This document shows, one piece after another, positions 1 to 38,293 of a stretch of 64,000 nt of DNA (its first letter is position 1; every line of letters begins with the position of its first letter). This stretch comes from Collybia mongolica. Taxonomy: Eukaryota; Basidiomycota; Agaricomycetes; Agaricales; Clitocybaceae. A program made the position numbers and the translations under genes. Below the pieces are notes generated by a model. The model worked only from the letters and a program-made list of their open reading frames with translations, did not search any database and was not told where the DNA came from. The stretch is from NCBI GenBank assembly GCA_013420905.1, contig JAAXNY010000020.1, positions 1 through 64,000 on the forward strand, in the 5' to 3' direction.

Positions 1-794
1 GCGCGCACATTGGGATGTGCGTCAAGCTGTCTTCAAAGCTACAGGTGGTGGTAAAGAATGGTACTACTTCTTCCACCATGTAATGTGGCTGACAGGATAC
101 TATACGGAGAGGGACGGGTTGCTCCCCCTATTTTATGATTACGGGCGCGCACCAACCTTACCGTTAGATATCATTGAAGCCACTTGGTAGTAAAGGTACC
201 AGGAAAAATTGACTACAGAGGAACTCATTGGGTTTAGAGCGCAGGCTCTAGCTAAGCACGTCCAGCATGGCCGATATGAGGAAACGTATCAACTAAGAAA
301 AACGAAGGAGACTATTACAGTATAGAAGGATCACAGCGTGACCATCAAGACTATGATTTCAAACCAGGAAGTTTAGTACTAGTTAGAAATACCGAGGTCG
401 AAAGTTCGCGCTAAAAGCTGAAGCCACGGTACCTGGGACCAATGATAGTCCTGAGACGAAACCGCGGGGGACCTATATTGTTTGTGAAATGGATGGATCG
501 GTGTGGCAACATAAAGTGGGGGCGTTTAGGGTTATTCCCTATTTTGCTAGGAGTACAATTGAACTGCCGGATAATCTGCAAGATCTAATAGACATCTCTA
601 GCGAAACATTAAATGCTTTAGTGGAATCGAAAGATCCCGCTAATAGACAAGTTTATAAGGAGCGTGACTATACCTTTGACAGAGTCCAATTGGATCAGTC
701 CGATTCAGAGTCAAGCTCTAGTGAAAACACTGAAGAGGGGATAGCGCCGGCGCTACCACAAACTACTATGTCACACCGGAAGTTGCATAAGTGA
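1..794 (+). pseudogene. Integrase C-terminal part of retrotransposon copy A, frameshifted
   Basis: This stretch matches the inverse complement of about 11243-12054, the C-terminal half of the integrase of copy B. It runs off the left edge. Compared with copy B it has several small deletions in the first 480 bases (for example near 50 and 60), so no continuous frame exists there. The last part (489-794) is open and ends in the same acidic, serine-rich tail as copy B. It is the 3' end of the pol gene of a second, plus-oriented copy of the same Ty3/Gypsy element. The catalytic region lies mostly beyond the window, so only its decay is seen here. I infer a dead integrase. Confidence 0.85.
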
Positions 795-940: not shown

Positions 941-2318
941 TCAAGCAGATATGAAGTCGTCTTCAACCTCGGGCAAGGGCACATCAGCCGGAGCTACCTC
1001 CTCTTTATCATTGTCATCCTGGTCATGGACTTCGGTAGCGCTTGCAGTGGCAGCCTCGTCAGAGCCTCCCTCCAGAGCGGCCTCGTTCATTAGACCGTTG
1101 AGGCGAGTAACCTCGTCCATAGTGGCGTCACGACGCTTCAATAAGAAGGACACTGTATGACTGATCTCCTCCAACTCAGCGCGGTAGTTTAAAAGCATCC
1201 TACCGAGGGCTTGCTTGGTGTGTGACAAGGGATCGCCCGCGTCAGCAATCAAGCGCGCCCGCGCTAAGACTACATCGTGCTCCTTGGAGGGACGGAAGTC
1301 AATAAAGACACGAGTATCTGATACACAGTCAGTATAAAATTAGAACCATCTATTATTAGAAAACGTACCCTCAGCAGATGCCTTTGGATCTTCATCCGGG
1401 GTGTCCTGCCTCGTACGCTTTTTGGGACGAAGAGTGCTGCCGCGGTTGAGCTCGGAACGCTTACCGTCCTGTAGGAATAAGAAACAAAGTAATAGACAGA
1501 GCAAAAACAAGAATGGGTACCTTGATGGCAGCCTTTTCAGCCTTAGTCCTTTTGACACGGGGAACCTTAATGTTCTCCTTCTCCTTGCGACTACGGGTGA
1601 TTGGTCCTTCACTAAGGAGACGACTAGTCACTGGCCCAGAGACAGTAGCGCTAGCCGTAGCGCCGGAATCAATGACCATATTCTTGAGTAAAGAAGAGAC
1701 GCCATTGAGTATGTCGCGCACTGACAGCGCGGTAGCTAAAAAGAAACATACCGAGTCAGTACCAGACATTTCAATGTCACCGTCATATTCACCGCCAGCA
1801 ATGACCTCGCCTGGAATAGCAGGACTATCCGCATCACCACCAGTAGCAGGGACCTAGTACCAGAAAACCATGGTTTAAGAACAGTACAGTGCAAGATAAG
1901 GTAAAAAGCACGCACCGCGGTTTGAGACAGGTGCTCGGTGCGGACCTTTTCACGGTGACGGTGAATAGCGGCAGTAAGAGTCACAATGTTGCGGTAGACG
2001 GGCTCTTGAAGTAACTCGGGGTATACATGTTGTAGTCCCTGGAATGCTTTACGGACGCCAAAGATAACATTCTGCCAGGACCGCTCCGTCAAAACCATTT
2101 TGGACTCAGTCAGGAGTAGCTGTAAATTGTAAAAGTTGTTACGATAACGGCGTATATAAGTTAATTGGTAAAAAGTGTACCGCGGTTTCGCCTAACTTCC
2201 GGACGCTGACCCTTTGTTCAACAAGGGTGTCCATCGATAAACGAGCTTGAAAGGTGTGCCACTGAGCTTGGACCATCTTGAAGTTCTCGATGTCTTGATA
2301 GTTGGGGGGGCTAGTCAT
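941..2318 (-). CDS. Antisense cargo gene 2 of retrotransposon copy A, 383 aa, unknown function
   Basis: Five exons, read on the minus strand: 2318-2181, 2119-1916, 1853-1521, 1468-1369 and 1317-941. All introns are GT-AG and 50-62 bases long, and the joined frame is 1152 bases with one stop. The product has no domain I recognise. Its N-terminal half is largely polar/helical, a basic stretch rich in Lys and Arg (TRSRKEKENIKVPRVKRTK) sits near the middle, and the C-terminus is acidic. Exon sizes are identical to those of the copy in element B, so every splice site has survived in both copies. It runs antisense to the integrase and converges with it. The start is the first ATG about 95 bases below a TATA box. 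A role in regulating or packaging the element is only a guess. Confidence 0.8.
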
Positions 2319-2414
2319 AATGATGCAGAGGAAATTGATTCTTCGAACCAGAACGTTGTAAAGAGAGTATAATAGAGTCGGGCGATGTCTTGGGACAAAA
2401 AGCACAGCCAGTGC

Positions 2415-2424
2415 CCTTTTTATA
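2415..2424 (-). promoter_or_regulatory. TATA box of antisense gene 2, copy A
   Basis: The minus strand reads TATAAAAAGG here, about 95 bases upstream of the gene 2 start codon. The same box, with the same flanks, is present in copy B at 9609-9616. This supports an independent promoter for the antisense gene rather than read-through from the LTR. Confidence 0.65.
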
Positions 2425-3024
2425 CCTCTACAACTAGAGAAGTGCTACCCAGTCTCTCATTCGTTGCGCGCGTTCTATCCCCAGAAAAATCTATACATTT
2501 CAACTGAACAGGTCCGAGACGCGTGCCTAATTGAAATGCTGGGCCCAATTAAAAAAAAAGGAGCTCCGTAAAAATTCATGTGGAGCGCGGCAGTGTCCGC
2601 ATGACAACTGGGACAGTTGTTATCAGTGTTGAGGGGGAGATGGGTATAAGCAAAATCGAATTGGAAAAACCTTACCAAGGTTACAAGGATTGAAATAGAT
2701 TGTCTATAAAAAGTCAGTGATCGCGCCACGGTTTTTAATGATCGAGAGAATTGCACCAGAATTAAACCGTACTATTTATAACTTAAGTAGCCGGGGCAAG
2801 GGCGGAAGCTTTCTTATGAAGACAATAGAACCACAGCCAAATCAATAGCATTGTTTATAGTCCGAGGGACTGTATGTAAGACAAAGTGTTGGACTTCAAT
2901 TAATAAAATTGAAGCCCAACGAAAGGCGGGGGAACTTAGGTAGCAGTAATAAAAGGGCCAGGGGCCCGGGAAAACACATATAAAAAAAAAAAAAAAAACG
3001 TAGGTGGGGGGGGGCGCGGCGCGG
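2425..3024. other. Intergenic spacer between antisense genes 1 and 2, copy A
   Basis: No gene is seen. The spacer holds the 3' end of gene 1 and the upstream region of gene 2. It includes a run of about 17 A next to a G-run (2983-3014), which on the gene strand reads as C-run then T-run directly after the gene 1 stop. The matching spacer in copy B (9023-9608) is well conserved, including several purine- or pyrimidine-rich blocks, which suggests shared regulatory sequence. Confidence 0.5.
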
Positions 3025-4969
3025 CTACTCCTCCTCGCTGTCAGGCACGGACGCAGAAGATCTTGACGACGAAGAACTGTCATCAACCTCTACTTCTTCT
3101 TCCAAGGGCGGCCAAGGGAGATTCTGGAAGTCCGCGTAGAAGAGGAGGGCGCTCTCCGTGGCTGGCGTAGTCAGCAAGAGGTTTTGAAGGCCCTCCAGGC
3201 CTTCCTCCTCGTACAACCTACCAATGGTGCCAACTATGCGCGCCAACAAGGAGTCGCGCATTTCAAGCGCGCGGTTAGCGGCCTGAATGACCTCCGCGGC
3301 AAGGGTGTCCGCGTTGCCGAGCTGAGCATAGGCTTCAGCAACCGCTAGTAGAATAAGTAAAATCAGTAGTAAACAAAAAGATGGAAAGAAGATGGCTTAC
3401 TAGAAATGCCCGCACCAAGCATGGGCCCCAGATCCTCACGGAGCCTAGCGCGCCTCTGGGGAGTGAGGCTGAAGCTGCACTTCCCCTTCTTGGCGGTGGC
3501 GCATTCCACGCACGGTTTACCCCAACCGTTGAAGGTGCACTCAATGTCGCCGCGGGTGGCGCACATCGTGCAAGGATAGCCCACCTAGTAAAAATGATCA
3601 GTAACAAGAAATAAAGTAGTAATAAACATACGGAAGAGCGCCGCGGCGCAAGGTCAGCCAGCAGGGAGGTAATAGGGGACTGGAGCGGCGTCAGCTCCCG
3701 GTTGGGAACCAGCGCGTGCTTACGGTGTGTCGCCTGAGCCCTATCCCTAGAGCGGGTGGTCTTACGCGACTGACGAGGAGAAGGGGCCGCGGGAGGCAAC
3801 AACTCCGCGAACCCCTCTTGAGCCAACTGGCGTGCGACCTCATCATCGAAGAGCTGAAGCTCAGGGACTTCAACCTTCACCGGCGGCTGCCCAGAGGACT
3901 AAGGAGATAAAGATGAGTGAACGTAAATGACTTCAGAAAGAGACATACCGGGCCTGCTTCCGAGGGACGCAGCGCGGAAGCACTGCCAGTCCCCTGGGCG
4001 CGCGACATGTCGGACTAGAATTGTGAAATCAAGTCAGCAATAATGTGAAACTCGTAAAGTAAAGGATATACCTGGGGAACCGCACGGCCTTTTCCCTTGG
4101 ACCCAGCATTACGCTTCCGCTTGAGGGGCTATTAAAATAAGTCAACTACCGAAGAAAAGTAATAAAAAGCAGTAATAAACGAACCGCGGGTACCAAGACC
4201 GGGGAGCGCGCCGGCAAGGGCGCGGCGGACCAATTGTCCTGGTACTGATGGTAACGGCGCGGCGCGCCAACCATGCGAGGCGGGACGAGGAAAGTATCCC
4301 GAAAGATACTATCACCATTGTCGCGCTCGAAGCGCGACCCCACCTGGTCAAGGACTTGCTCCACTGTGGGAGCCTGGCCCTAAAAGAAAAAGGTAGTCAG
4401 CTTGACAAAGGGAGGCAGAGTAAAGAAGTAAACAAGTTATTTACCAGAAGAATGGAGTTGGCGCCCAGGTCAGTCGATATGACCGTACGCCAGGACGACC
4501 ACGAAGCATCGCGCGCGTCAACTGGGATGCGCATCACTTGAAGGTGAAGCGCGCGCAGGAGGAGGATAGCCGGATATGGCAGCGAGAAACGCGCGCCACG
4601 GACCACGCCAGTGATGGCATCCTGAGACCAGTAAATAAGTAAAAGGAATTAACAAGTAAAAGATGGGCGTACGATGAGCATGGAGCAGTGATCGACAAAG
4701 TCGATCAAGTCGTCAAGGTCAAGCAGACCCTGATGGTCCATACGGGGCGCGAGCTCCTCGGCCATGATAATCCACCCTTGCTCCATAGCGACGAAGACGT
4801 CGCCCTCGGCATCTTCGAGGAGGTCAGGGAAGGAAGGGATCGGCTGGTCCACATAGACCATGGTGGGGGAACGGCCCTCAGTCGGCAGAATCGCGGCAGA
4901 GAGCGGGAGAGACAGCGCGGAAGGCGAGCGCAGAGCACGAGCCATGGCGGAAGTGGAAGTGGAAGACAT
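3025..4969 (-). CDS. Antisense cargo gene 1 of retrotransposon copy A, 520 aa, Zn2Cys6-like zinc-cluster protein
   Basis: Eight exons on the minus strand: 4969-4673, 4621-4445, 4379-4185, 4128-4072, 4014-3949, 3898-3632, 3584-3401 and 3344-3025. The joined frame is 1563 bases, open throughout, with all introns GT-AG (46-64 bases). Residues 358-389 carry six cysteines spaced C-x2-C-x7-C-x8-C-x2-C-x7-C, which fits the fungal Zn2Cys6 binuclear cluster (C-x2-C-x6-C-x5-12-C-x2-C-x6-9-C is the usual form). A basic KRKR-type patch precedes it and the C-terminus is a Ser/Asp/Glu tail. This suggests a nuclear DNA-binding protein, but no fungal transcription-factor middle domain is recognisable. The start codon lies directly beside a foreign LTR fragment, so the native promoter of this copy has been lost. 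Confidence 0.85.
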
Positions 4970-5033
4970 TTCTGTTTAAAACAGCGCGGCACTGTCGTTT
5001 ACTCCTCCTGATTGTCCTGGTTGCTATTCACGG
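4970..5033 (-). repeat. Fragment of the truncated 3' LTR of copy B (inner part)
   Basis: This piece matches LTR positions of about 363-425 in minus orientation (compare 19214-19276). With 6254-6615 it is the surviving 425 bases of the 3' LTR of copy B; the two parts are separated by a solo LTR. On the left it is fused to the start codon of gene 1 of copy A. That fusion is where the promoter and 3' LTR of copy A and the rest of this LTR were deleted. Confidence 0.75.
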
Positions 5034-6249
5034 TGATAGGGCCCGAAATTGTTTGCACTTATAAAGTCGACAAGTAAGGCTATTAGTGTCATTTCTAATA
5101 ACCAAGTAAGCGGTAATAAAGGATTAGAGTCGAGCTCCGAGACGGCTAATCAGAGTGAACTGGTCTAATGGATAATACACTATCAGTACAGAGGACTATG
5201 AGTACGGTCTATTATTAGTCCTATTCACCATGCCCGGTTACAACCTCGGTGTCTTAGTTCATAAGTAACCGTTGTAGTATGATATCATTAGTCCGGGGAT
5301 CATCATTAATAGGAGAAGTAATTGTAAATTCGGGACTTGCACAACCCGATCCTAGTCAGGGGTACTTGGTGTTAACTACCGGAAGTGACGGGACACCGTG
5401 AATAGCAACCAGGACAATCAGGAGGAGTAAACGACAGTGCCGCGCTGTTTTAAATAACAGAGCGCGCGGTCGGGACTTGATAAGAGTTTAGCCAGCTCTT
5501 TCAATATTTGATAAGTAACCAGTAAACGACATAATTGGCACGCATGGCGCGCGCGCCAAGTTGTAGTAGACGCGTCAGTATTGAATACAGATTCTTGGCG
5601 CGCGGGAGCGCGGTTCCGTGTAAAATTTACAATTCCATATGATATTTAGTTTGTACATTATAAATAGACTGTAGATGAGTAGCGCTAAGGCAAGGAATCT
5701 TGCCCCCACTTCGCGCGACTATAGAGTATACAAATCACATTTGTTAAAACACTATTGCGTGCCCGAATTAAGGATCAGATTGCTTCAACGTGTCTTGATT
5801 GGAATTGATTGGAGAACCACAGAATTAAAGAAACTTAGTTCACTTGGAACTTAGTACCGTATTGTCCGTTGGAATTACTAGGCACTTGGCCTTAGTGCAC
5901 TTGGCACTGTATTGTTTGATAAGTCGCTTGGACTTATAGATCCGCTTGGGATCACTAATAATTGAACGTACACTTGGTACTCAGTCTATTGGATCGAGAG
6001 ATATTATAAATATACCTAGCAGGTTTTTGAACCTGTGTTGAAGCTTTTGTCTAAATCGAACCCGTCGAGAGATCATTGGAAAGGGCTTTGGCTAGTACTA
6101 TTCAAAGCTTAGTGCTTCTAAGCACTTGAACCCGAACTCAAAACAGGCGATTCCTACTGTTCGTGTGTTGATTGTTAAGTTTGGTGTGTGTGTGTAAGGG
6201 ATTACATTTCATAGCATCAGCGCACTTATAGCCCAGGAGCCCCCTTTCA
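5034..6249 (+). repeat. Full-length solo LTR inserted in another LTR of the same family
   Basis: It starts TGATAGGG and ends CCCTTTCA, giving short inverted ends (TGA-T/A-AGGG), and is 1216 bases long. It is flanked by the direct repeat ACGG (5030-5033 and 6250-6253), a target-site duplication. The surrounding sequence is the same LTR family in the opposite orientation, cut at the point where the LTR-B copy reads through uninterrupted near 19273-19280. It contains a TATA-like ATTATAAATAG at 5658-5668 and a short GT-rich run at about 6185-6196. No internal element sequence is attached, so it is a solo LTR left by recombination after insertion. Confidence 0.85.
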
Positions 6250-6253
6250 ACGG

Positions 6254-6615
6254 GGTCCCGCCGCTTCCAGTAGTTAACACCAAGTACCCCTGACTAGGAT
6301 CAGGTTGTGCAAGTCCCGAATTTATAATTACTTCTCCTATTAATGATGATCCCTGGACTAATGATATCATACTACAACGGTTACTTATGAACTAAGACAC
6401 CGAGGTTGTAACCGGGCATGGTGAATAGGACTAATAATAGACCGTACTCATAGTCCTCTGTACTGATAGTGTATTATCCATTAGACTAGTTCACTCTGAT
6501 TAGCCGTCTTGGAGCTCGACTCTAATCCTTTATTACCATTTACTTGGTTATTAGAAATGATACTAATAGCCTTACTTGTCGACTTTACAAGTGCAAACAA
6601 TTTCGGGCCCTATCA
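6254..6615 (-). repeat. 3' LTR of copy B, outer part (U3 start)
   Basis: This is the first 362 bases of the LTR in minus orientation, starting with TG at 6615. It follows the polypurine tract of copy B and continues, after the inserted solo LTR, into 4970-5033. The remaining 790 or so bases of this LTR are missing. Confidence 0.8.
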
Positions 6616-7063
6616 TCTCCCCCATACCACAAATGTAGACTGTCCTCAGTCTCTCTTTGCCGGCATGTTGGTCCAATACTTCGGGTCTGCACGCGTCTAA
6701 TCTTTCAGTACAAGGTTACAACGGTTCCGCTTTTAGACAGGTAGGCGCGCGAGGTTGGGACCGAGCCCAGAGGTTTACTTCCCATCAGGATCGTGACAGT
6801 TATATACGTCTCCTGAGAGAATACTTGACATTCGGACATCGCTTTACAGATATTTCAGTCATCTGAACCTTTCTCTCGTTATGTTTCTGACACTTCAGCA
6901 AGAGATCGGTACTCCTGCTTGTCTTTTAGAACTTCGCAATGCAGGGTTGTGCGTTTTAAAAGCTCGCGCCCTTGCTAAGTTTTAGACAATTTGGACTTTA
7001 TAGCCCATTTCTAAATTTCTTTGCTATTCACATTGCTCAAACACTCCAACTTCTCTAACCCAA
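6616..7063. promoter_or_regulatory. Polypurine tract of copy B and upstream region of antisense gene 1
   Basis: Immediately beside the LTR start, 6616-6623 reads GGGGGAGA on the element strand, a good polypurine tract for plus-strand priming. The rest, about 440 bases, leads up to the gene 1 start codon and presumably holds its promoter. A weak TTTATAG lies at about 6997, near 65 bases before the ATG, in a pyrimidine-rich leader. In copy A this whole region is gone. Confidence 0.6.
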
Positions 7064-9022
7064 ATGTCTTCTACTTCCACTTCCGCCATGGCTCGTGCCC
7101 TGCGCTCGCCTTCCGCGCTGTCCCTCTCGCTCTCCGCTGCGATTTTACCGACTGAGGGCCGTTCCCCCACTATGGTCTATGTGGACCAGCCGGTCCCCTC
7201 ATTTTCCGACCTCCTTGAAGATGCCGAGGGCAATGTCTTCGTCGCCATGGAGCAAGGGTGGATTATTATGGCCGAGGAGCTCGCGCCCCGTATGGACCAT
7301 CAGGGCCCCCTTGACCTCGACGAGTTGATTGACTTCGTCGATCACTGCTCCATGCTCATCGTACGCCCATCTTTTACTTATTAAAACCTTTTACTTATTT
7401 ACTGGTCTCAGGATGCCATCACTGGCGTGGTCTGTGGCGCGCGTTTTTCGCTGCCATATCCGGCTATTCTCCTCCTGCGCGCGCTTCCCCTTCAAGTGAT
7501 GCGCATCCCAGTCGACGCGCGCGAGGCTTCGTGGTCTTCCTGGCGCACGGTCATATCGACTGACCTGGGCCACAATTCCATTCTTCTGGTAAGTGACTTG
7601 TTTACTTTTTTTTTTACTCTGCCTGCCCTTGTCAAGCTGACTACCTTTTACTTTAGGGCCAGGCTCCCACTGTGGAGCAAGTCCTGGACCAGGTGGGGTC
7701 GCGCTTCGAGCGCGACAACGGTGAAAGTATCTTTCAGGATACTTCCCTCGTCCCTCCTCGCATGGTTGGCACACTGCGCCGTTACCATCAGTACCGGGAC
7801 AGTTGGTCCGCCGCGCCCTTGCCGGCACACTCCCCGGTCTTGGTACCAGCGGTTCGTCTAATACTGCTTTTTATTACTTTTCTTCTGTGGTTGACTTATT
7901 TCAATAGCCCCTCAAGCGGAAGCGTAACGAAGGGTCCAAGGGCAAAGGCCGCGCGGTTCCCCAGGTATATACTATCCTTTACTTTACGGGTTTCACATTA
8001 TTCCTGACTTGCTTTCAAAATTCTAGTCCGACATGTCGCGCGCCCAGGGGGCTGGCAGTGATGCCGCGCTGCGTCCCTCGGAAGCAGGTCCGGTATGTCT
8101 CTTTTCTCTTTTGAACTCATTTACTTTTACTCATTTTTATCTCCTTAGTCCTCTGGGCAGCCGCCGGTAAAGGTTGAGGTCCCCGAGCTCCAGCTCTTTG
8201 ATGAAGAGATCGCGCGCCAGTTGGCTCAAGAGGGGTTCGCGGAGTTGTTACCTCCCGCGGCCCCTTCTCCTCGCCGGTCACGTAAGACCACTCGTTCTAG
8301 GGATAGGGTTCAGGCGACACGCCGCAAGCACGCACTGGTTCCCAACCGGGAGCTGACGCCACTACAATCCCCTATTACCTCCCTGGTGGCTGACCTTGCG
8401 CCTCGGCGCTCTACCGTATGTTCATTACTCTTTTATTTCTTGTTACTGATCATCCTTACTAGGTGGGCTATCCTTGCACGATGTGCGCCACCCGCGGCGA
8501 CATCGAGTGCTCCTTCAACGGTTGGGGTAAACCGTGCGTTGAATGCGCCACCGCCAAGAAGGGGAAGTGCAGCTTCAGTCTCACTCCCCAGAAGCGCGCT
8601 AGGCTTCGTGAGGATCTGGGGCCGATGCTTGGTGCGGGCATTTCTAGTAAGCCATTTTCTTTCTGTCTTTTTGTTTACTAATGATTTTACTTATTCTACT
8701 AGCGGTTGCTGAAGCCTATGCTCAGCTAGGCGACGCGGACTCTCTTGCCACGGAGGTCATTCAGGCCGCTAACCGCGCGCTTGAAATGCGCAACTCCTTG
8801 TTGGCGCGCATAGTTGGCACCATCGGTAAGTTGTACGAGGAGGAAGGCCTGGAGGGCCTTCAAAACCTCTTGCTGACTACGCCAGCCACGGAGAGCGCTC
8901 TCCTCTTCTACGTGGATTTCCAGAACCTCCCTTGGCCGCCCTTGGAGGAAGAAGCAGAGGTTGATGACGGTTCTTCGTCGTCAAGTTCCTCTTCGTCCGT
9001 GCCTGACAGCGAGGAGGAGTAG
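7064..9022 (+). CDS. Antisense cargo gene 1 of retrotransposon copy B, 520 aa, Zn2Cys6-like zinc-cluster protein
   Basis: Exons are 7064-7360, 7412-7588, 7657-7851, 7908-7964, 8027-8092, 8149-8415, 8463-8646 and 8703-9022, which join to 1563 bases with one stop. Exon lengths equal those of copy A one for one. The cysteine cluster (residues 358-389, C-x2-C-x7-C-x8-C-x2-C-x7-C) is encoded in exon 7, whose start coincides with the start of the motif region. Differences from copy A are a mix of silent and conservative changes; six residues differ in the 99 of exon 1, and all six cysteines are kept. Other visible features are a KRKR-containing basic patch near residue 245, a helical segment after the cluster, and a tail of Ser then Asp-Glu residues. 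A transcription regulator is the best guess from the zinc cluster alone. The gene runs opposite to gag-pol, in the slot between integrase and 3' LTR. Confidence 0.87.
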
Positions 9023-9714
9023 CCGCGCCGCGCCCCCCCCCCTATGTTTTTTTTTTTATCTACTTGTGTTTTCCCAGGCCCCTGTGCCCTTACATACTAC
9101 TTATTCCCCCGCCTTTCGTTGGGCTTCAATTTTATTAATTGAAGTCCAACACATGTTTCTACATACAGTCCCCTGGACTATAAACAATACAATTGGTTTA
9201 CCCGTTGTTCTATTGTCTTCATAAGAAAGCTTCCGCCCTTGCACCGGCTACTTAAGTTATAAATAGTACAGTTTAATTCTGGTGCAATTCTCTCGATCAT
9301 TAAGACCGTGGCGCGATCACTGACTTTTTATAGACAATCTATTTCAATCCTTGTAACCTTGGTAGGTTTTTCCAAATCGATTTTGCTTATACCCCTCTCC
9401 CCCTCAACACTGACAACAACTGTCCCAGTTGTCATGCGGACACTGCCGCGCTCCACATGAATTTTTACGGAGCTCCTTTTTCAATTGGGCCCAGCATTTC
9501 AATTAGGCACGCGTCTCGGACCTGTTCAGTTGAAATGTATAGATTTTTCTGGGGATAGAACACGCGCAACGAATGAGAGACTGGGTAGCGCTTCTCTAGT
9601 CGTAGAGGTATAAAAAGGGCACTGGCTGTGCTTTTTGTCCCAAGACATCGCCCGACTCTATTATACTCTCTTTACAACGTTCTGGTTCGAAGAATCAATT
9701 TCCTCTGCATCATT
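9023..9714. promoter_or_regulatory. Spacer and promoter of antisense gene 2, copy B
   Basis: The spacer holds the 3' end of gene 1 (C-run then T-run at about 9034-9058) and the promoter of gene 2. A TATA box, TATAAAAAG, is at 9609-9617, about 105 bases before the ATG at 9715. The leader is CT-rich. Blocks at 9110-9150 and 9410-9540 are almost unchanged from copy A. Confidence 0.55.
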
Positions 9715-11096
9715 ATGACTAGCCCCCCCAACTATCAAGACATCGAGAACTTCAAGATGGTCCAAGCTCAGTGGCACACCTTTCAAGCTCGTTTATCGAT
9801 GGACACCCTTGTTGAACAAAGGGTCAGCGTCCGGAAGTTAGGCGAAACCGCGGTACACTTTTTACCAATTACACTTTTTAAAACGCCGTTTTTGTAACCA
9901 ACTTTTACAATTTACAGCTACTCCTGACTGAGTCCAAATTGGTTTTGACGGAGCGGTCCTGGCAGAATGTTATTTTTGGCGTCCGTAAGGCATTCCAGGG
10001 ACTACAACATGTATACCCCGAGTTACTTCAAGAGCCTGTTTACCGTAACATTGTGACTCTGACTGCCGCTATTCACCGTCACCGTGAAAAGGTCCGCACT
10101 GAGCACCTGTCTCAAACCGCGGTGCGTGCTTTTTACCTCATCTCGTACTGTACTGCTCTTTAACTATGGTTTTCTGGTACTAGGTCCCTGCTACTGGTGG
10201 TGAAGCGGATGGTACCACTATTCCAGGCGAGGTCATTGCTGGTGGTGAATATGACGGTGACATTGAAATGTCTGGTACTGACTCGGTATGTTTCTTTTTA
10301 GCTACCGCGCTGTCAGTGTGCGACATACTCAATGGCGTCTCTTCTTTACTCAAGAATATGGTCATTGATTCCGGCGCTATGGCTAGTGCTGCTGTCTCTG
10401 GATCAGTGACTAGTCGTCTCCTTAGTGAAGGACCAATCACCCGTAGCCGCAAGGAGAAGGAGAACATTAAGGTTCCCCGTGTCAAAAGGACTAAGGCTGA
10501 AAAGGCTGCCATCAAGGTACCCATTCTTGTTTTTGCTCTGTCTATTACTTTGTTTCTTATTCCTACAGGACGGTAAGCGTTCCGAGCCCAATCGCGGCAG
10601 CACTCTTTGTCCCAAAAAGCGTACGAGGCAGGACACCCCGGATGAAGATCCAAAGGCATCTGCTGAGGGTACGTTTTCTAATAATAGATGGTTCTAAATT
10701 TATACCGACTGTGCATCAGATACTCGTGTCTTTATTGACTTCCGTCCCTCCAAGGAGCACGATGTAGTCTTAGCGCGGGCGCGCTTGATTGCAGACGCGG
10801 GCGATCCCATGTCACACACCAAGCAAGCCCTCGGTAGGATGCTCTTAAACTACCGCGCTGAGTTGGAGGAGATCAGTCATACAGTGTCCTTCTTATTGAA
10901 GCGTCGTGATGCCACTATGGACAAGGTTACTCGCCTCAACGGTCTAATGAACGAGGCCGCTCTGGAGGGGGGCTCTGACAAGGCTGCCACTGCGAGCACT
11001 ACGGAAGTCCATGACCAGGATGACAATGATAAGGAGGAGGTAGCTCCGGCTGACGTGCCCTTGCCCGAGGTTGAAGACGACTTCATATCTGCTTGA
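9715..11096 (+). CDS. Antisense cargo gene 2 of retrotransposon copy B, 383 aa, unknown function
   Basis: Exons are 9715-9852, 9918-10121, 10184-10516, 10569-10668 and 10720-11096 (1152 bases joined, one stop). All exon lengths equal those of copy A. The N-terminal third, with segments such as NYQDIENFKMVQAQWHTFQ and VRKAFQGLQHVYPELLQ, is predicted-looking helix. The middle has a basic cluster of alternating Lys/Arg, and the C-terminal part has a leucine-rich helix (QALGRMLLNYRAELEEI) followed by an acidic tail. No known family is recognised. The start was chosen because it is the first ATG after the TATA box and the splice frame demands it. The gene converges with the integrase; the two stops are about 146 bases apart. 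Confidence 0.83.
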
Positions 11097-11242
11097 GGAC
11101 AGTCCAATTAACTTCCTCTTGAGTTATGGTGTCTCTCCCCACGCTCCTTTGTATTACTGTCTTTACTCGGCTTAACACTGTCCTTACTACTTAGCTTAGT
11201 TGCTTATACTGTCTTTACTGCTTCTGTTTCCATACTGATTTA

Positions 11243-12760
11243 TCACCTATGCAACTTCCGGTGTGCCATAGTAGTTTGTGGTAGCGCTGGCGCTATCCCC
11301 TCCTCAGTGTTCTCACTAGAGCTTGACTCTGAATCGGACTGATCCAATTGGACTCTGTCAAAAGTATAGTCACGCTCCTTGTAAACTTGCCTATTAGCGG
11401 GATCTTTCGATTCCACTAAAGCATTTAGTGTTTCGCTAGAGATGTCTATTAGGTCTTGCAGATTATCCGGCAGTTCAATTGTACTCCTAGCAAAATAGGG
11501 AATAACCCTAAACGCCCCCACCTTATGTTGCCACACCGATCCATCCATTTCGCAAACAATATAGGCTCCCCCGCGGTTTCGTCTCAGGACTATCATTGGT
11601 CCCAGGTACCGTGGCTTCAGCTTTTTATCAAGCGAACTTTCGACCTCGGTATTTCTAACTAGTACTAAACTTCCTGGTTTGAAATCATAGTCTCTGATGG
11701 TTGCGCTGTGATCCTTCTCATACTGTAATAGTCTCCTTCGTTTTTCTATATTGATACGTTTCCTCATATCGGCCACATGCTGGACATGCTTAGCTAGAGC
11801 CTGCGCTCTAAACCCAATGAGTTCCTCTGTAGTCAATATTTTTCCTGGTAACTTTACTAACCAAGTGGCTTCAATAATATCTAACGGTAAGGTTGGGTGC
11901 GCGCCCGTAATCATAAAATAGGGGGAGCAACCTGTCCCTTTCCATATAGTAATTCTGTCAGCCCACATTACATGGTGGAAGAAGTAGTACCACTTCTTTA
12001 CATCACCACCTGTAGCTTTGAAGACAGCTTGACGCACATCCCAATGTGCGCGCTCGGCGATCCCATTTCCTTTGGAATTGTATGGTGATATACTTATTCC
12101 TGTAATACCATACTTGGATTCCAGCCATGCTTTGGCTGCGACAAAGGCAGGACCATTATCCGTTACAATTTCCGTTAGGGAACCCCATCTACAAATTACT
12201 TCTTCGAACAGCCACCTTCCCAAGGTCTTGCCATCCTCAGATTTGAGGGGCGCGCCTTCCATCCACGAAGACAGTGCACATCTTCCTTGGACAATGTATT
12301 TATAACCATTAGACGATGGGCTCATATACATGGTGTCCGCATGCAATACTTGGAATATAGACGGCGTGTGGGTTATGACAGGAGGGATTCTCAACAAAGT
12401 TAAGAGCCTTGTCTGACAGATGTGACATGACTTCACATACCATGATACATCGTGTTCCATTTCTGGCCACCAAAATCTTTTATCTATTAAGGATTTTGTT
12501 GCATAGAAACCCCTATGTCCAACAGAATCGTGAGACGCCCTCATCATATATGTCCGGTGATTTTTATCAACAACAAGCTGGTGCGCGCTATCGATATTTT
12601 TCCTATACATCCTGCCTTCTGGATCCAAAAAGAAATTAGACGCCTGCCTTGCAAACTTTAGGTAGGCGCGATCCGTCATTCCTTTTGGTCTCTTTTGTGG
12701 TCTTTTTAACCATTCTTTTATTAAAGGTAGGTTTTTATCCTGTTCCTGCGCCGTAGGTGT
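11243..12760 (-). CDS. Integrase domain of pol, copy B
   Basis: This is the C-terminal third of pol, in the same frame as RT-RNase H but separated from it by a single TGA at 12761-12763. An N-terminal zinc-binding HHCC motif is visible (HDSVGH and, about 30 residues on, CHIC). The catalytic triad is present: Asp in VLHADTMYM, Asp in IVTDNGPAF and Glu in [11 protein letters not shown], the D-D-35-E pattern of retroviral-type integrases. A C-terminal domain with the usual PGSLVLV-like turn follows, then an acidic, serine-rich tail. The enzyme would insert element cDNA into the nuclear genome. The first ATG in the open frame is at 12679, but the domain clearly begins upstream, so the TGA is probably a mutation (CGA to TGA). 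Confidence 0.88.
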
Positions 12761-15289
12761 TCATTTAGACTCGTCATATACTTCCCTTACATTAGGGTCA
12801 TATTTAAACTTTTCATCGGGTATGACAGTAGTATTTACAAGTTGCTTTAGATAAGCTTCTCTTTGAATACCGAACCGTCCTAAACCTAAGTGCTGTTTTA
12901 CTTCTCCAATAAATGCTGCTTCACCAGCCCAGGCATTGTTTACTTCAACTTCAAAATCAGAGATTTCCTTCGCAAGTTGGAATAAATATCCGCCGCGCGT
13001 GTCGATCTCCTCTTTAAAATCTGACAGCTCCAAAGGGTCATCTAACCCTTCCGTTGGGTTGATAAACTTTAAAGGACCTGAGGGTTCGTTGTAACCGTCG
13101 TCTGGGTCCGGGTAGACAGGATCCCCTAGCCGCGCGTCTCGTCTTGACAGACCATCTGGGCCAAAGCCTTTACCAGCTTTATGAACCAGAGTAAAGTGGA
13201 ACATAAGTATCCTATCAATCCACCTATTTACCGTTGCATTAGGTCCTAGACTTGGGTTTGATAACATCCCCTTAATGTACTTTGCATCCGTTTCCACTAC
13301 CAAATTTCGTACTCCAATAAACCAATAATAACATGCCATTAGAACTCTCATCAATCCGAATAGCTCTCGTTTGGGTTGTGAGAAGCGCGCTTCGCGCTCA
13401 TTCAGAGTTATCGAGTCAAATCTAGCATAGTGCTTTCTTCCAGGTATATCAGGGTCTTCCTGGTAGATATAGTAGCCTACGGCTTTCCATGACGTATCTA
13501 CTGACAGTACTACTGGCGTATTCCAGGTGTAATTAATTGGACGGAGCGCGGGGCTATTTTTAAGTGCGTCTAATAATAGCTGCTGCGCTTCTTCTTGCTC
13601 AGGCCCCCATATCCAAGGTTCACTACTCCTAGTTAACTTTTGAATTGGTTGACCTATACGGGCGAAGTCTTTAATGAAATTCCTGCATACACCAATAGTT
13701 CCCATGTAAGCGCGTACTTCACTGACATCTTTGCATGGTCCCCATCTTTCAACTACACCGATTCTATCTGTAGTAGGTTTTCGTCCTTCATAGGTACATC
13801 TATGTCCTACCACTAGAATTTCACTTGCGCATAACATAGACTTATATCCTGAAAACATTCCTCCAGAATACTTCATTCTCTGTACGACGCGATTTACATT
13901 TTGCATATGTTCCCAGAAGAAGCGCCTAACACCTGGAGCACCAGGTAGCTCTTCTTCTGTTCCGTCCGGCAGTTCGTAGCGCGTTGCTGGACCGCGCACG
14001 GGTACATCATCAATGTAGGGTATTGTGACATGTGGTACCTCATCCTGTAGGATGTATGTGACATCATCATGAAATATTGGAACTGAATTCGTCCATCCCA
14101 TAGGAAGTGTTACTAGTCTCAGCACGCCAAACGGTGTTTGGAACGTGGTTAGATCGCGCGAGGTTTCTGCTAAAGGCCTCTCATTGTATCCTACATATAG
14201 ATCCATCATTCCGCCACAAGCGCGCCCTGCGAAGTGTTCTGCTAGTTCTTCGGTAGCGGGTGGTAAGCCCGAGTGCGCTATTGTGACTGCATTCAGCGGT
14301 TCTAGACTATGTACAATTCTAAGCTTCTTTCCTGGGCCTTTCTTTAATACGGTAAACCATCTAGACCTATATGATGAATTGGATCTCTCATAGACTCCTG
14401 CATCAATTTTAGTTTTGATGATTTTACAAACATCTTCATAGATCCTTGGTGGGATTCTAATGTTCCTTTCTGTCCACGGCGTATGTGGGACTACTGGTAT
14501 CTCGACGGGAGGAAAATATTCCTTCTTAAAGCTACCGCGCTCACTATCATTCCAGGCAAAACCATCATTATGTTTGCACATAAAGTCGTGGATTATATCC
14601 ATCTCTTTAGGTTTTAAGAAGCTCTCTTCTTCGTGTACCCTTTGGAATTCCGCACGCCTTTCCTCAGTATACCTTCCAGTTGGTTTAAACGGAGGTGGGT
14701 TAGGCGTTAGAATGGGTAGGGCCGCTAAAGGGTCACCCTTTATATCTCTGATAATTCTAAATTTATCAGGCAGGTCCGCCAGTGTTGGTTTTGTTTTCAA
14801 ATGTACTGGTTTATACTTCTTTCCTACTAGCTGATCCATGGGCTCAATATTACACTTTTCACTTGTTGCAGTTCCAAGACCGCGCTCGTTGGTGCCAATT
14901 TGCCACTGCTTTAATTTACTTAAAGCTTTATCGGTCATGGGCTGTTTTTGAGCGTATGTCATAGGTCTAGTGGGTGTACTTGCTGGGTCGCTGCTGTTCT
15001 GCTCGTAGTTTATCACTGGTCCATTGCGCTCATCTACGGAAGCCAAGTACGTGGCTAGTAATTCGCGTTCAGGTACTGTACTATTCATGTTCACATCACT
15101 TCTAGACAAAAAGACATCTCTAAGTTCTTTGTGACCAAAATTCCGTTTATCAGTAGGGTGTCTATAACCCGTTATAATAAAATTTCCGTTCTCATCTTCA
15201 GCAATTTCTACAGCTAGCTCTCCTTGATCACTTTGGATTAATTCATCGAAGGCCGAAAATCCTGCTCCGGTTGTCTTTTCAACAGCTTA
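12761..15289 (-). CDS. Reverse transcriptase and RNase H of pol, copy B
   Basis: The frame is open from 15286 to a TGA at 12761. RT core motifs are present, including the catalytic YIDD box (PYIDDVPV), preceded by GMMDLYVGYNERPLAE-like and LPMGWTNS motifs typical of Ty3/Gypsy. RNase H follows, with its acidic residues in LSVDTSWKAVGYYI, QPKRELFGL and VVETDAKYI and the closing GPDGLSRRDA segment. It copies element RNA into DNA and removes the RNA strand. Upstream the same frame is interrupted by TAA at 15287-15289, and before that it would start at an ATG overlapping the protease stop. The ends are therefore set by stops, and this copy is probably defective. Confidence 0.88.
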
Positions 15290-15327: not shown

Positions 15328-16443
15328 TCATCCCGTGTTAGGGTCCGTGATAGTGACTACTTGTCCCCCGTCCCGAGCATTTTTGATCTGACTTTCCGTG
15401 AGTGTATCAAATGGTCTCCCGAGCAATACTTTGTATGCGGGTGAATTTATGATATGTACTTGGAGGTAGATGGCCATGTCATTAAACAAGAAAGGAACAT
15501 TGCGCGCTAATCCCGCTGTTCTCTCAACTTGTTTATTAGCACTCTGCATGTGTATGACAACGTCCGGATCCCATGAAATATCTAAGTCTAAAGCCGTTTG
15601 TTTAGCCATTGATACTATTTGGGATCCCCCATCTAATAAAGATTCCTCCGTTCCTGCCCCATTTATTACTGGATATACTGCGCGCAAAGAGGCCGATTCT
15701 TTTGCTACATACAACTGTTTGGGCTCTTCCCCAGCTGGTAAAGATTCTAAATACTGTAGGACTGGGTCTCTGCATATTATAGATCCCTTAGGTATTCCGC
15801 CGCGGTCATACTCCGAGATGAAGAAAGACTGGAATGGGATTGACTCTACTGGTAGCGCGTCATGCCGTAAGTAGTTATCATCAAGTTCCCAGTCCCCTCC
15901 AAAGGGTAAGATGTCTTCCTCATCTATTCCGTTTATTTGCAAGTTAGCGTCCCTTTGGGTGAGGGACTTACGTCTGGCAGTTACAATATTCTTTATCCCA
16001 TCTCTAATGGTTTTTGACGAGCCCATTAACTCTCCCGTGGTCAATGTGATAGGGTTGTCTAACACTTTAGCAATTATATCGCCACCTTTTAATTTTACTT
16101 CTATCGGGGACTTAGTTTCATAAGTCGGACCGCGCTTAGTGTTAAAATCAGGTAGCGGATCAACTGGTTCAGGGTTGCGTTCCGTTCTCCGGGGTATGTA
16201 GGGTACCACGGGCACATCGATGTAGGGTAATTCTTTTCGTACTGGAGACTTTACTGATGGTTCAACAAATTTTACTTTCTTTTTCCTAGGAGACGGCGCT
16301 ACCAACTCCTCTTCGCTACTATCCCGACTACTCTCCGAATCGTTACTTTCTTGACAACTATTTCTGTTTTTATTTCGGTCCTCTGGCTGTCTCTTGGAAC
16401 GCGACCTAGTCGTAGGTCTAGCGTGTTCCTTAGCCTCCTTCAT
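15328..16443 (-). CDS. Retropepsin-like protease ORF, copy B
   Basis: 371 codons. The N-terminal third is a basic then acidic, low-complexity linker, probably the end of Gag or a spacer. The protease domain lies near residues 260-350, with the active-site segment LLDGGSQIVSM (Asp-Gly-Gly-Ser in place of the usual D-T/S-G-S) and the closing VLLGRPFDTL motif of Ty3/Gypsy proteases. It would cleave the Gag-Pol products. It sits in the -1 frame relative to gag, starting eight bases downstream of the gag stop. Its TGA overlaps an ATG of the RT frame (ATGA), again a -1 step. Confidence 0.8.
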   Translation of the reverse strand: MKEAKEHARPTTRSRSKRQPEDRNKNRNSCQESNDSESSRDSSEEELVAPSPRKKKVKFVEPSVKSPVRKELPYIDVPVVPYIPRRTERNPEPVDPLPDFNTKRGPTYETKSPIEVKLKGGDIIAKVLDNPITLTTGELMGSSKTIRDGIKNIVTARRKSLTQRDANLQINGIDEEDILPFGGDWELDDNYLRHDALPVESIPFQSFFISEYDRGGIPKGSIICRDPVLQYLESLPAGEEPKQLYVAKESASLRAVYPVINGAGTEESLLDGGSQIVSMAKQTALDLDISWDPDVVIHMQSANKQVERTAGLARNVPFLFNDMAIYLQVHIINSPAYKVLLGRPFDTLTESQIKNARDGGQVVTITDPNTG

Positions 16444-16448
16444 CGGAC

Positions 16449-18308
16449 CTAATTGAAACCCGACTCTTTAACCTTGTTTTGGTTATTGAGTTCTGCTACC
16501 TGCCCTAATAAAGTACTCATTTGTGCTTGTAAGGCTACTATGTCAGGGTTCGGCGCGCTCTTTGCCGTAGGATTATAGTTATTATTTATATATTCCTGTT
16601 TCTGCATCTGAGGCGCTACTGGCAGCGCGGTTTGCGCGCTCTGTTGTCCTAACATTTGTTGCGCTTGAAATTGTGCCATTTGTGCCATTATGGCTTTCAA
16701 GGTTCCAATGTCGTTACTGTTGTCTACTGCATTATGTGACTGCATAACGGACAATACTCCTGGAGCGGGTCCTTCTGTGACATCTCCGTAATAAAGGGCC
16801 GCTACCTTCTTTGAATGGAAGTGTTCCACTTTATCTTTCAATGATACCGTTTCTGGTTCTCTTGGAATATATGATCCGTCTGGTAAGCATACTCCTCCAT
16901 TTGCATTGGTTTTTATTTTCCCTTCCTCAAAATGTTTCTGTTTCTCGGGACAGGCCATTATGAAGTGTCCGGGTGTAAAACAGTAGTGACATTTATACGC
17001 ATTTGGTCTTTGCGGTTGTCCTTCTTTAGGCTTTCCGTACTGATTCTGATACTGATGCTGCTGGGGTGCGCTATTCGTGGCATGGTTCTGAACAGTTGCT
17101 TGTTGAAGCGCTTTCATTACATCCTCGAATCCACTCCTCGTATTCTTCTCATTTACTTGGAGATGGTCTAACAAATTAACTATTTGTTGTTTTATTTCAT
17201 CCATCTCTACTTTGATTTTGGGCGCTGCTGTTGCTGTTACGGACGTTATAAACGATCTATTTGTGTCTGGAATATTCATGTTGGCTACACCTTCAGAAAT
17301 GCTGATTGCAGTTGCTATAACTTCCTCCAGATTGTACTGATCCCCTTTTCGTCGCGCGAGCGCGGCGGCTTCGGCAATAGTATTAGGATCTGCTCGGTTG
17401 TTTGTAGCAACGGCTTGTCCTGCCTGTGTAGCATTAGACTGATTATTCCCTAGCAGGGTTAGCCTTCCTTGTACTTGGGATCTGAAGACTTCGTCTAGAC
17501 ATCCCAAGAACTTGGTAACTAATTCTCGGTTAGAGATAATAGGTGGCCTAACTCCCAAGAGTTTAATAGATTCTGCTTTGAATTCACGCTTCAGCTTTTT
17601 CAGCACGGCCTCATCGGTTACTCCAATACGTGGGTTGGTGCGACACACTGCTTCTAACTTGGCTACTGATCCTTCTACTTGATCAAGTGCTTCCGGATAA
17701 CTAGAGATCAACTCTGTCTTGAAATCCGTCCAAGTGCCTGTCTTATAGTGGTCTAATGCCCTCCACTCATTCTCTGATTGTAGGTCTGCGTATTTTCCTA
17801 ACATTAACTTCTTTTCTTCATCATTTGTAATGTTACACTCCTTCCATAGGACCTCCATTCACTCCAGAAACCGGATTAAACCCGTGGGCTCTTTTCCTTT
17901 GAATACTGGTGCATCACGGACGCCTGGTTGGGGCATATATTTACGAGGGGGTTCAGTCATGATTACTGAACGGTTCTGAGTAGCTAACGAGTTCGGGTTT
18001 GCTACTGGGTTTACTACGGACGATCTTCCGCGCGCTACTGGTTTACTAGTAGTCGATATGTTTCCTAAGGGCTCTGGAGTTCTAAATACTTGCCTTGGTC
18101 CTGAAGATCCAAAGGCTGGTTGTGAAGATCCTCGTGTGCGCGCTCGCCTAGGAGGTGGTAACGACTCTGTTACTCCAGCGTTTTGCGAATTTTTAGTCTG
18201 CCGCGTTTTTGTAGCTACTTGTCTTGCAAGTGGCTGATTAGTTAGTCTGTTTGACGAGCTGGCTTGTGGGCGTGGCTCTTGAGACAGATTGACTAAACTT
18301 TCTCCGCT
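16449..18308 (-). pseudogene. Gag, copy B, interrupted by an in-frame TGA
   Basis: The capsid/nucleocapsid protein. The distal part (17858-16449, 469 codons) contains a retroviral-type capsid region and a CCHC zinc knuckle (CHYCFTPGHFIMAC, C-x2-C-x4-H-x4-C) near residue 295, followed by a Gln-rich tail. The same frame continues upstream of its first ATG through a TGA at 17859-17861 to a TAG at 18309-18311. The upstream part reads as protein-like sequence, including an ATG at about 17959 and a segment ending TGLIRFLE directly before the stop, which joins smoothly to MEVLWKE. The stop is most simply TGG changed to TGA. No function can be expected from this copy unless the stop is suppressed. 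Confidence 0.8.
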
Positions 18309-18416: not shown

Positions 18417-19634
18417 TGAAAGGGGGCTCCTGGGCTATAAGTGCGCTGATGCTATGTAATGTAATCCTTCACACACACACACACCAAACCTAACAATCAA
18501 CACACGAACAGTAGGAATCGCCTGTTTTGAGTTCGGGTTCAAGTGCTTAGAAGCACTAAGCTTTGAATAGTACTAGCCAAAGCCCTTTCCAATGATCTCT
18601 CAATGGGTTCGATTTAGACAAAAGCTTCAACACAGGTTCAAAAACCTGCTAGGTATATTTATAAAATCTCTCGATCCAATAGACTGAGTACCAAGTGTAC
18701 GTTCAATTATTAGCGATCCCAAGCGGATCTATAAGTCCAAGCGACTTATCAAACAATACAGTGCCAAGTGCACTTAGGCCAAGTGCCTAGTAATTCCAAC
18801 GGACAATACGGTACTAAGTTCCAAGTGAACTAAGTTTCTTTAATTCTGTGGTTCTCCAATCAATTCCAATCAAGACACGTTGAAGCAATCTGATCCTTAA
18901 TTCGGACACGCAATAGTGTTTTAACAAATGTGATTTGTATACTCTATAGTCGCGCGAAGTGGGGGCAAGATTCCTTGCCTTAGCGCTACTTATCTACAGT
19001 CTATTTATAGTGTACAAACTAAATATCATATGGAATTGTAAATTTTACACGGAACCGCGCTCCCGCGCGCCAAGGATCTGTATTCAATGCTGATGCGTCC
19101 TCTACAACTTGGCGCGCGCGCCATGCGTGCCAATTATGCCGTTTACTGGTTACTTATCAAATATTGAAAGAGCTGGCTAAACTCTTATCAAGTCGCGACC
19201 GCGCGCTCCGTTATTTAAAACAGCGCGGCACTGTCATTTACTCCTCCTGATTGTCCCGGTTGCTATTCACGGGGTCCCGCCGCTTCTGGTAGTTAACACC
19301 AAGTACCCCTGACTAGGATCAGGTTGTGCAAGTCCCGAATTTATAATTACTTCTCCTATTAATGATGATCCCCGGACTAATGATATCATACTACAACGGT
19401 TACGTATGAACTAAGACACCGAGGTTGTAACCGGGCATGGTGAATAGGACTAATAATAGACCGTACTCATAGTCCTCTGTACTGATAGTGTATTATCCAT
19501 TAGACTAGTTCACTCTGATTAGCTGTCTTGGAGCTCGACTCTAATCCTTTATTACCGTTTACTTGGTTATTAGAAATGATACTAATAGCCTTACTTGTCG
19601 ACTTTACAAGTGCAAACAATTTCGGGCCCTATCA
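18417..19634 (-). repeat. 5' LTR of retrotransposon copy B
   Basis: 1218 bases, TGATAGGG at the outer end and CCCTTTCA at the inner end on the minus strand. It matches the solo LTR at 5034-6249 in reverse over its full length with scattered substitutions. It contains the TATA-like box and a TG microsatellite near 18470-18484. It is CpG-rich, unlike the older LTR beyond it. The outer flank is a tRNA-like sequence. Confidence 0.88.
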
Positions 19635-19728
19635 GCGGGAATCGAACCCTCAACCCTTAGGATGTTGCACAGCCACCCTGATGGGAGCACAACTTTTTGC
19701 AGTAGTAACCGCTACTCCATTGTGCCCC
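19635..19728 (-). other. tRNA-like segment (tRNA pseudogene or SINE head) abutting the 5' LTR
   Basis: On the minus strand the segment begins GGGGCACAATGGAGTAGCGG and ends with a T-arm/B-box, GAGGGTTCGATTCCCGC. The B-box GGTTCGATTCC is a perfect Pol III consensus, and TAGCGGTTA resembles an A-box. The acceptor strand expected after the T-arm is missing because the LTR of copy B starts there. It is too long for a plain tRNA, so it is either intron-containing, a pseudogene or the head of a tRNA-derived SINE. Ty3-like elements are known to insert near tRNA genes, which fits the position. Confidence 0.45.
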
Positions 19729-20345
19729 TTGTACACTATAAATAGACTGTAGATAAGTAGTGCAAAGGAAGGAATCTTGCCCCCACTTTGCGCTACTATA
19801 GGATATACAAATTATATTTGTTAAAACACTATTGTGTGCATGAATTAAGGATCAGATTGCTTCAATTGTCTTGATTAGAATTGTCTCAAAGCATTTGGCT
19901 AAAGAGATCACAGAATTGAAGAGTTCAGTTCATTTGGAACTTAGTACTCACATTGTCTGTTGGAATTACTAGGCACTTGGCCTTTAGTGCACTTGGCACT
20001 GTTGTTTTAATAAGTCACTTGGACTTGTAGATCCACTTGGGATCATTAATAATTGAACATACTGTACACTTGGTACTCAGTCTATTGGATCAAAAGATAT
20101 TATAAAAATATACCTAAAAAGCCTTAAGCTTGTGTTAGGGCTTTGTCCAAATCAAACCCATTGAGAGATCAGTGAAAAAAGCCTTGACTAGTAATATTAA
20201 AACTTAGTGCTTTCAAGCACTCAAACCCAAACTCAAACAGGCAATTCCTACCATTTGTGTGTTGATTATTAGATTTGGTGTGAGTGTGTGTAAGAGATTA
20301 CATTACATAGCATCAGCACACTTATAGCCCAGGAGCCCCCTTTCA
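19729..20345 (+). repeat. Old, CpG-stripped partial LTR of the same family
   Basis: It matches the solo LTR from about 5651 to its end, finishing AGCCCCCTTTCA, but with many changes. Most differences turn CpG into TpG or CpA (for example GCGTGCCCG becomes GTGTGCATG). The first 600 or so bases of the LTR are replaced by the tRNA-like segment. This is an older insertion that has been methylated and deaminated. Confidence 0.8.
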
Positions 20346-38168: not shown

Positions 38169-38293
38169 TCAGATATTCTGGTTGACTGGTCTTGCAGGCT
38201 CAGGAAAATCTGCCATTGCTCATACTGTAGCACAGAGTTTAGAGACAATGCCAATAACGCATGGACAACAATGTCAGGACCAAGATTCAGATA

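Follow-up and report, generated by a model that had tools for sequence, protein, structure and literature searches.

Two intron-rich antisense genes between the integrase and the 3' long terminal repeat of a multi-copy Ty3/Gypsy retrotransposon family in Collybia mongolica

Retroelements usually lose their introns, because they are copied through RNA. How, then, does a retrotransposon of the fungus Collybia mongolica (Agaricales) come to carry two genes with 11 introns, and do these genes serve the element, its host or neither? The question is raised by one end of contig JAAXNY010000020.1 (C20 below; assembly GCA_013420905.1, a genome of 46.0 Mb in 26 contigs), of which positions 1 to 64,000 of the forward strand were analysed and are referred to here as the window. 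It contains two head-to-head Ty3/Gypsy copies, each with an antisense pair of genes, A and B, between integrase and the 3' long terminal repeat (LTR). A preliminary description of the two copies had proposed that a transposon maintains the pair as multi-exon cargo. That interpretation is partly supported by the results given here, and the splicing of A and B is still a prediction from the sequence.

The antisense gene pair and its family

Both gene models could be rebuilt with the exon numbers, protein lengths and antisense position that had been reported for them. In copy 2, gene A (7064..9022, plus strand) has eight exons (7064-7360, 7412-7588, 7657-7851, 7908-7964, 8027-8092, 8149-8415, 8463-8646 and 8703-9022), seven introns and 520 predicted amino acids, and gene B (9715..11096, plus strand) has five exons (9715-9852, 9918-10121, 10184-10516, 10569-10668 and 10720-11096), four introns and 383 predicted amino acids. 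In copy 1, where the element is on the plus strand, the pair occupies 941..4969 on the minus strand, with A exons at 4673-4969, 4445-4621, 4185-4379, 4072-4128, 3949-4014, 3632-3898, 3401-3584 and 3025-3344, and B exons at 2181-2318, 1916-2119, 1521-1853, 1369-1468 and 941-1317. As had been claimed, all 13 exon lengths are equal in the two copies, both frames are open and 11 of 11 introns run from GT to AG, while the exons differ by many substitutions (92.9% identity in A, 96.9% in B). Intron lengths differ by 3-6 bases in four of the 11 introns. About 100 bases upstream of the ATG of gene B lies a TATA-box-like sequence, GGTATAAAAAGG (9607..9618, plus strand), which is identical in 27 of the 30 copies compared below and has one extra A in the other three.

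Chance capture of an ordinary host gene pair at a single locus, which had been named as an outcome that would speak against the proposal, is not borne out, as motifs of the pair occur about 100 times in the genome. The A exon-7 motif was found at 98 genomic places, the B exon-5 motif at 103 and an integrase motif at 103, with no places for the reversed-pattern control of any of the three. A and B are spaced 2323 ± 60 bases apart at 77 of the 98 A sites, and B and integrase 781 ± 60 bases apart at 88 of the 100 B sites listed. Far beyond chance, the pair is part of a Gypsy family that has about 100 copies.

This family looks autonomous, because in most of the scored reverse transcriptase (RT) places the RT-integrase frame of 1347 amino acids is open and the match free of stops (37 of 54, and two more if one stop is read through). 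The broken gag-pol of the preliminary description is correct for the window, where copy 2 has one in-frame stop between RT-RNase H and integrase and the remnant in copy 1 is broken; it is a local condition and does not extend to the family. Exon 1 of gene A was found at the expected distance straight away in 40 of the 54 RT places. Of the remaining 14, a DNA search recovered the pair at seven, two sit at the ends of contigs, and one (on C23) is matched in part. At C12:445066 the motifs of A and B are normally spaced, at C4:2718197 the B motif is displaced and that of A missing, and C4:179109 was not assignable; the last of them, C10:1672626, is considered further below. In a second subfamily, sampled by locus L055, all 13 exon lengths are unchanged and A and B are both open; another 11 full-length copies match it at 99-100% identity over 5.1 kb, which indicates that the expansion is recent. 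The pol lineage itself is widespread, to judge from the many relatives of the RT in the protein database (1479 at E<=1e-10 out of 7994 candidates scored; the top match has 77% identity across 94% of the query, and Armillaria ostoyae is the only organism named among the 120 matches listed). No relative of the RT was found in IMG/VR.

Predicted protein A has a basic patch (KRKR), an acidic Ser/Glu tail and a six-cysteine cluster of spacing CX2CX7CX8CX2CX7C, encoded in exon 7 (8463..8646, plus strand), in which all six cysteines are kept in 29 of 30 copies. The spacing differs from the CX2CX6C..CX2CX6C of Zn2Cys6 zinc-cluster regulators, and neither A nor its exon 7 alone matched PF00172 or any other Pfam entry. 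Protein B has three basic stretches in mid-protein, a helical C-terminal exon and an acidic tail; no Pfam domain reached the cut-off in either protein, a sub-threshold match of B to SPECT1 being the only hit. AlphaFold predicted a long helix for B exon 5 (predicted local distance difference test, pLDDT, 75), for which no PDB match was found below E 0.6, and gave a poor model for A exon 7 alone (pLDDT 61). A PDB sequence search likewise gave no match below E 0.6. Among 5.8 billion proteins, searched with A but not with B, no relative appeared at E<=0.001 (7997 candidates scored, perhaps crowded by poly-Ser), nor did residues 345-480 of A find one at E<=1 (406 candidates). We regard this absence as weak evidence, since the database is taken to contain few correctly spliced fungal proteins.

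Constraint on the two reading frames

We aligned 30 loci, L001 (window copy 2) to L030, together with window copy 1. L023, which is truncated in the gene region, was left out of the counts of frames, introns, indels and shared or private variants (30 copies), and L023 and window copy 1 were left out of the diversity and CpG counts (29 copies); copies with broken frames were excluded from the omega runs, leaving 30 sequences for A, 27 for B and 20 for integrase. Both A and B are open in 25 of 30 copies, counting L011, which is without the A stop codon, and integrase is open over its aligned part in 19 of 30. In eight of 30, window copy 1 among them, A and B are open while integrase is broken. 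The introns keep GT..AG in 322 of 330 cases; the donor accounts for all eight exceptions and the acceptor for none. At other positions of introns and spacers AG is kept in 1519 of 1615 cases, so that the intron acceptors stand out. Frame-breaking indels separate exons from their surroundings: there are two in 2715 bp of exon, 23 in 626 bp of intron and 24 in 692 bp of the A-B spacer (Fisher tests of exon against intron and spacer, 2.7e-15 and 3.8e-15). Six of the eight indel events in exons are multiples of three. Integrase has 15 frame-breaking indels in 1345 bp, a figure that includes large events and the truncation of copy 1.

Substitutions point in the same direction. A ratio well under 1 between the copies, which had been put forward as a sign of selection, was found when the proportions of non-synonymous and synonymous differences (pN/pS) were compared between window copies 1 and 2: 0.21 for A, from 68.5 synonymous and 42.5 non-synonymous differences, and 0.22 for B, where the counts are 21 and 15. 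Pooled over all sites, pN/pS is 0.26 for A, 0.37 for B and 0.26 for integrase, and in a frame control the other forward frames score 1.8-2.4. CpG sites exceed other sites in variability by a factor of four to 46, according to the gene and the codon position. We considered separately those sites that are CpG in no copy (never-CpG), with the expectation set by the synonymous rate. Non-synonymous changes at these sites amount to 0.30 of expectation in A (p 4e-10), 0.25 in B (p 3.4e-4) and 0.27 in integrase (p 2.2e-5), and diversity at codon positions 1, 2 and 3 is 0.011, 0.008 and 0.045 in A, 0.0045, 0.0037 and 0.0164 in B, and 0.0021, 0.0025 and 0.0113 in integrase. At sites that are CpG in any copy, the observed/expected values are 0.83 for A (p 0.07), 0.95 for B and 0.84 for integrase; variation there is nearly equal at the three codon positions of B (0.119, 0.116 and 0.121) and shows a modest third-position excess in A (0.106, 0.105 and 0.178). 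In our reading of these patterns, A, B and integrase have probably been filtered alike by selection across rounds of transposition, and CpG decay after insertion appears to take place under weak constraint or none. Constraint at never-CpG sites with little at CpG sites argues both against a neutral passenger and against a family protected by the host. The proposal that a transposon maintains these genes is thus upheld in so far as they are multi-copy, antisense and under purifying selection; the word cargo undersells them, because their constraint is close to that of integrase.

Never-CpG diversity also climbs toward the 3' LTR (window 6616-12589), from integrase third positions (0.011) through B third positions (0.016) and the A-B spacer (0.023) to the introns of A (0.036), its third positions (0.045) and the LTR-side spacer (0.044). 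Recombination between subfamilies is a possible cause.

We put at roughly three in four the probability that A and B are working parts of a recently active Ty3/Gypsy family of about 100 copies. That they are nuclear regulatory proteins of the element is a further claim, for and against which we see even odds. Several points weigh against these conclusions. The alignment is made up of the copies that most resemble those of the window and is not a random sample of the family. Intron donors (322 of 330) are no better preserved than GT elsewhere (2357 of 2437), and both frames are open with all 11 introns GT..AG in only 18 of 30 copies. The signal weakens when CpG sites are included, omega being 0.49 for A, 0.70 for B and 0.51 for integrase. 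Values under 1 also come from the mirrored reverse frame (0.40 and 0.51), and two pseudo-frames in the intergenic spacers reach 0.61-0.67 (p 0.04-0.07), which means that the observed/expected test is somewhat noisy. The ratios for private and shared variants (0.66/0.47 in A, 0.42/0.75 in B and 0.55/0.48 in integrase) lack the simple pattern expected; as a timing test this split was dropped, since 31 of about 100 copies are aligned, 'private' variants are not truly private, and CpG masking is better suited. At C10:1672626 (around 1670420-1675148) an LTR and the integrase motif are separated by about 1 kb, too little to accommodate the pair, and A and B therefore seem to be deleted there. Finally, the step to nuclear regulators, drawn from composition and analogy, is the weaker one.

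Element layout, integration sites and other features of the window

The assignment to Ty3/Gypsy is based on copy 2, which lies on the minus strand. Its 5' LTR (18421..19636, 1216 bp, TG..CA ends) is complete, and its 3' LTR is in pieces, a first part at 6250..6615 (98.1% identical to its own 5' LTR over 370 columns) and a further piece at 4975..5033. As read from the sequence, a putative primer site, TGGAGCCCACCGCGAGGGTTC, follows the end of the 5' LTR, and a polypurine tract, TATGGGGGAGA (6616..6626, minus strand), adjoins the 3' LTR. Pfam matches to the open reading frames (ORFs) follow the order RT-RNase H-integrase, the rve and RVT_1 matches each being under the Pfam cut-off on their own. 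From 5' to 3' the element has gag with a zinc knuckle (16449..17858; PF13696, 6.2e-6, just under the cut-off), a protease region (15328..16467; DUF4100 and weak gag-asp protease matches, both under the cut-offs), RT-RNase H (12761..15286; PF17919 and PF17917), with the in-frame stop at its end ahead of integrase, and integrase (11243..12760; H2C2 zinc domain PF17921, 5.8e-18, and rve core PF00665, 3e-5, under the cut-off). Copy 1 is the mirror image of copy 2, joined on one side to the LTR of copy 2 and cut on the other by the contig start; of its integrase frame 794 bases remain (1..794, plus strand), broken and with 10 stops in the best frame.

The junction between the copies (4970-6615) is complex. 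Copy 1, without a 3' LTR of its own, meets the middle of the copy 2 3' LTR near TTTAAAACAG. Nested in that same 3' LTR is a solo LTR of the family (5034..6249, plus strand; 4-bp target duplication ACGG). An assembly artefact was rejected, as exon divergence between the window copies is 3-7% and dozens of further copies exist in the genome.

LTR outer ends across the genome, together with the solo LTR of the window and the end at 19637, indicate a 4-bp target duplication NCGN and nearly strictly CpG-centred integration. An 18-mer from the LTR start occurs at 283 genomic places, 84 of which adjoin the polypurine tract; the other 199 are preceded by CGN in 151 cases and by YRN (CG, its decay products CA and TG, or TA) in 198, against a CG background of 3.4%. 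For the 3' flanks, four of 20 loci were dropped (L041, where the LTR runs into the primer site of another element, and L036, L051 and L053, where no LTR end was found), and the remaining 16 elements gave 13 xCGx, two xCAx and one xTGx. In four elements with the 3' flank CCGC, the expected 5' end had CCGC in three, such places numbering only 20 genome-wide; none of four elements with other 3' flanks appears among those 20 places. A tRNA gene at the insertion was considered and rejected, since ARAGORN found none in the window or in L035-L054 and Rfam none in 1-22000. Outside the 5' LTR, at 19637-20341, a tRNA-like T-arm can be seen by eye, which neither ARAGORN nor Rfam called, and after it comes a diverged relative of the LTR (83%) in opposite orientation.

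Further along, the window has a transposase-like ORF of 315 amino acids flanked by 235-bp inverted repeats that are 98% alike (38292-39910; Tc1/mariner-type by eye), and at 40470-43032 ORFs with WD40-like repeats, again by eye, and after them a second transposase-like element, this one decayed, whose inverted repeats measure 197 bp (91%). A HET-domain gene (45505-47088; PF06985, 2.5e-26) is as expected for a filamentous fungus.

Proposed mechanism, alternatives and known systems

How the introns could persist follows from the orientation of the genes. We propose that A and B would be transcribed toward integrase from promoters of their own, as the conserved TATA box of B suggests, and then spliced. 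Because A and B are antisense, their splice signals stand backwards in the genomic RNA of the element, where they would be unreadable, and all 11 introns would survive each round of reverse transcription. The same principle is used in antisense-intron retrotransposition reporters. The proteins might then serve transcription of the element, its escape from silencing or its nuclear steps, like the nuclear antisense protein of maize Grande.

Antisense accessory ORFs are a known kind of gene, which narrows the novelty claimed earlier for the architecture. Plant Ty3/Gypsy elements, among them maize Grande (gene23), rice RIRE2, Retand (TRP28 ORFs) and bean PvRetro13, are described with antisense coding ORFs in the same position, between pol and the 3' LTR, and the coding region is described as present in most copies (PMC7264820, PMC11963269). 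According to these two sources, the Grande protein is nuclear and has its own promoter, and a DNA-binding, regulatory role has been proposed for TRP28 of Retand. The family described here differs from the plant elements in being fungal, in its two genes with 11 introns and in the lack of TRP28 and of any other Pfam domain that reaches the cut-off (PF04195 is not among the matches, as A has no Pfam-A match and B only the sub-threshold one to SPECT1); the word 'intron' is absent from the main text of both papers. Among fungi, an antisense gene, brtn, is cited as an addition to the LTR element Boty of Botrytis cinerea (Zhao et al. 2011, cited by PMC7264820, PMC8365987 and PMC4227169). Compared by description only, Boty has one named antisense gene and the present family two, and the gag-pol of Boty has a CHROMO domain (PMC4227169), whereas no chromodomain is among the matches of our 505-amino-acid integrase ORF at E<=10. 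LTR retrotransposons of bdelloid rotifers also have extra genes downstream of pol, the captured ORF3s, which are reported to be expressed typically from spliced messages; these are described as env-like or enzymatic, and an antisense multi-exon pair was not seen in the passages on them in PMC5408684. A literature search, with subscription papers mostly outside it, gave no recognised description of multi-exon antisense genes in a Gypsy element. The intron-rich side of the original claim of novelty therefore stands: the two-gene, 11-intron version with integrase-like codon constraint is new, as far as the search reached.

Which function the pair has is less certain than that it has one. A and B may instead help integration or nuclear targeting, for example if the cysteine cluster of A binds CG-rich target DNA. 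The nearly strict CpG centring of target sites is consistent with this, and the cluster resembles fungal zinc-cluster DNA-binding domains by eye, with no Pfam match; integrase by itself could set the target preference, however, and no data tie A to targeting, and we consider such a role unlikely, though worth keeping in mind.

Alternatively, the host rather than the element could preserve A and B as a domesticated family. The eight copies in which A and B outlive a broken integrase fit this, as does the rarity of frame-breaking indels in A and B (2/2715) relative to integrase (15/1345), but the copies were chosen by similarity of A-B, which biases that comparison. The near-equal CpG variation at the codon positions of B suggests that inserted B is unprotected, the excess in A being modest, and B keeps a fixed spacing to integrase in 88 of 100 places listed; host domestication is accordingly improbable. 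A captured host pair spread by the element as a neutral, slowly decaying passenger would explain the lack of any known domain connecting A or B to retrotransposition and the apparent loss of the pair from at least one copy (C10:1672626), and antisense orientation by itself would shield a passenger's introns too. Such a passenger should not have shown, over the same 30 copies, as few as two frame-breaking indels in exons when its introns have 23, held non-synonymous never-CpG changes to 0.25-0.30 of expectation or retained open frames in the L055 subfamily, and we give it very little weight. Equally remote is a conserved antisense RNA, regulatory or double-stranded-RNA-forming, in place of protein: antisense transcripts have been proposed as regulators of LTR elements (PMC7264820), but selection here tracks codon position and exon boundaries while introns and spacer gather indels freely, and an RNA role may at most exist on top of the protein role.

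We thus return to A and B as working parts of the element. A more speculative extension, which we hold to be doubtful, joins several of these observations: the pair would be a spliced antisense control module, with gag-pol on one strand and nuclear control proteins on the other. The introns would guarantee that only sense genomic RNA is copied, because a reverse-transcribed A/B message would lose them, and the proteins might counter CpG methylation by the host or steer integration to CpG. If this were true, a single strategy would unite the antisense genes with the decay of CpG in inserted copies and with target sites centred on CpG.

In summary, 11 introns have been kept through a genome-wide expansion, and this is most simply explained by the backward orientation of the genes that contain them. 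A caution follows as well, since automatic annotation could take such genes for a family belonging to the host. The family has about 100 copies, of which at least 37 keep the RT-integrase frame open, and it allows the role of antisense accessory genes in LTR retrotransposons to be tested in a fungus.

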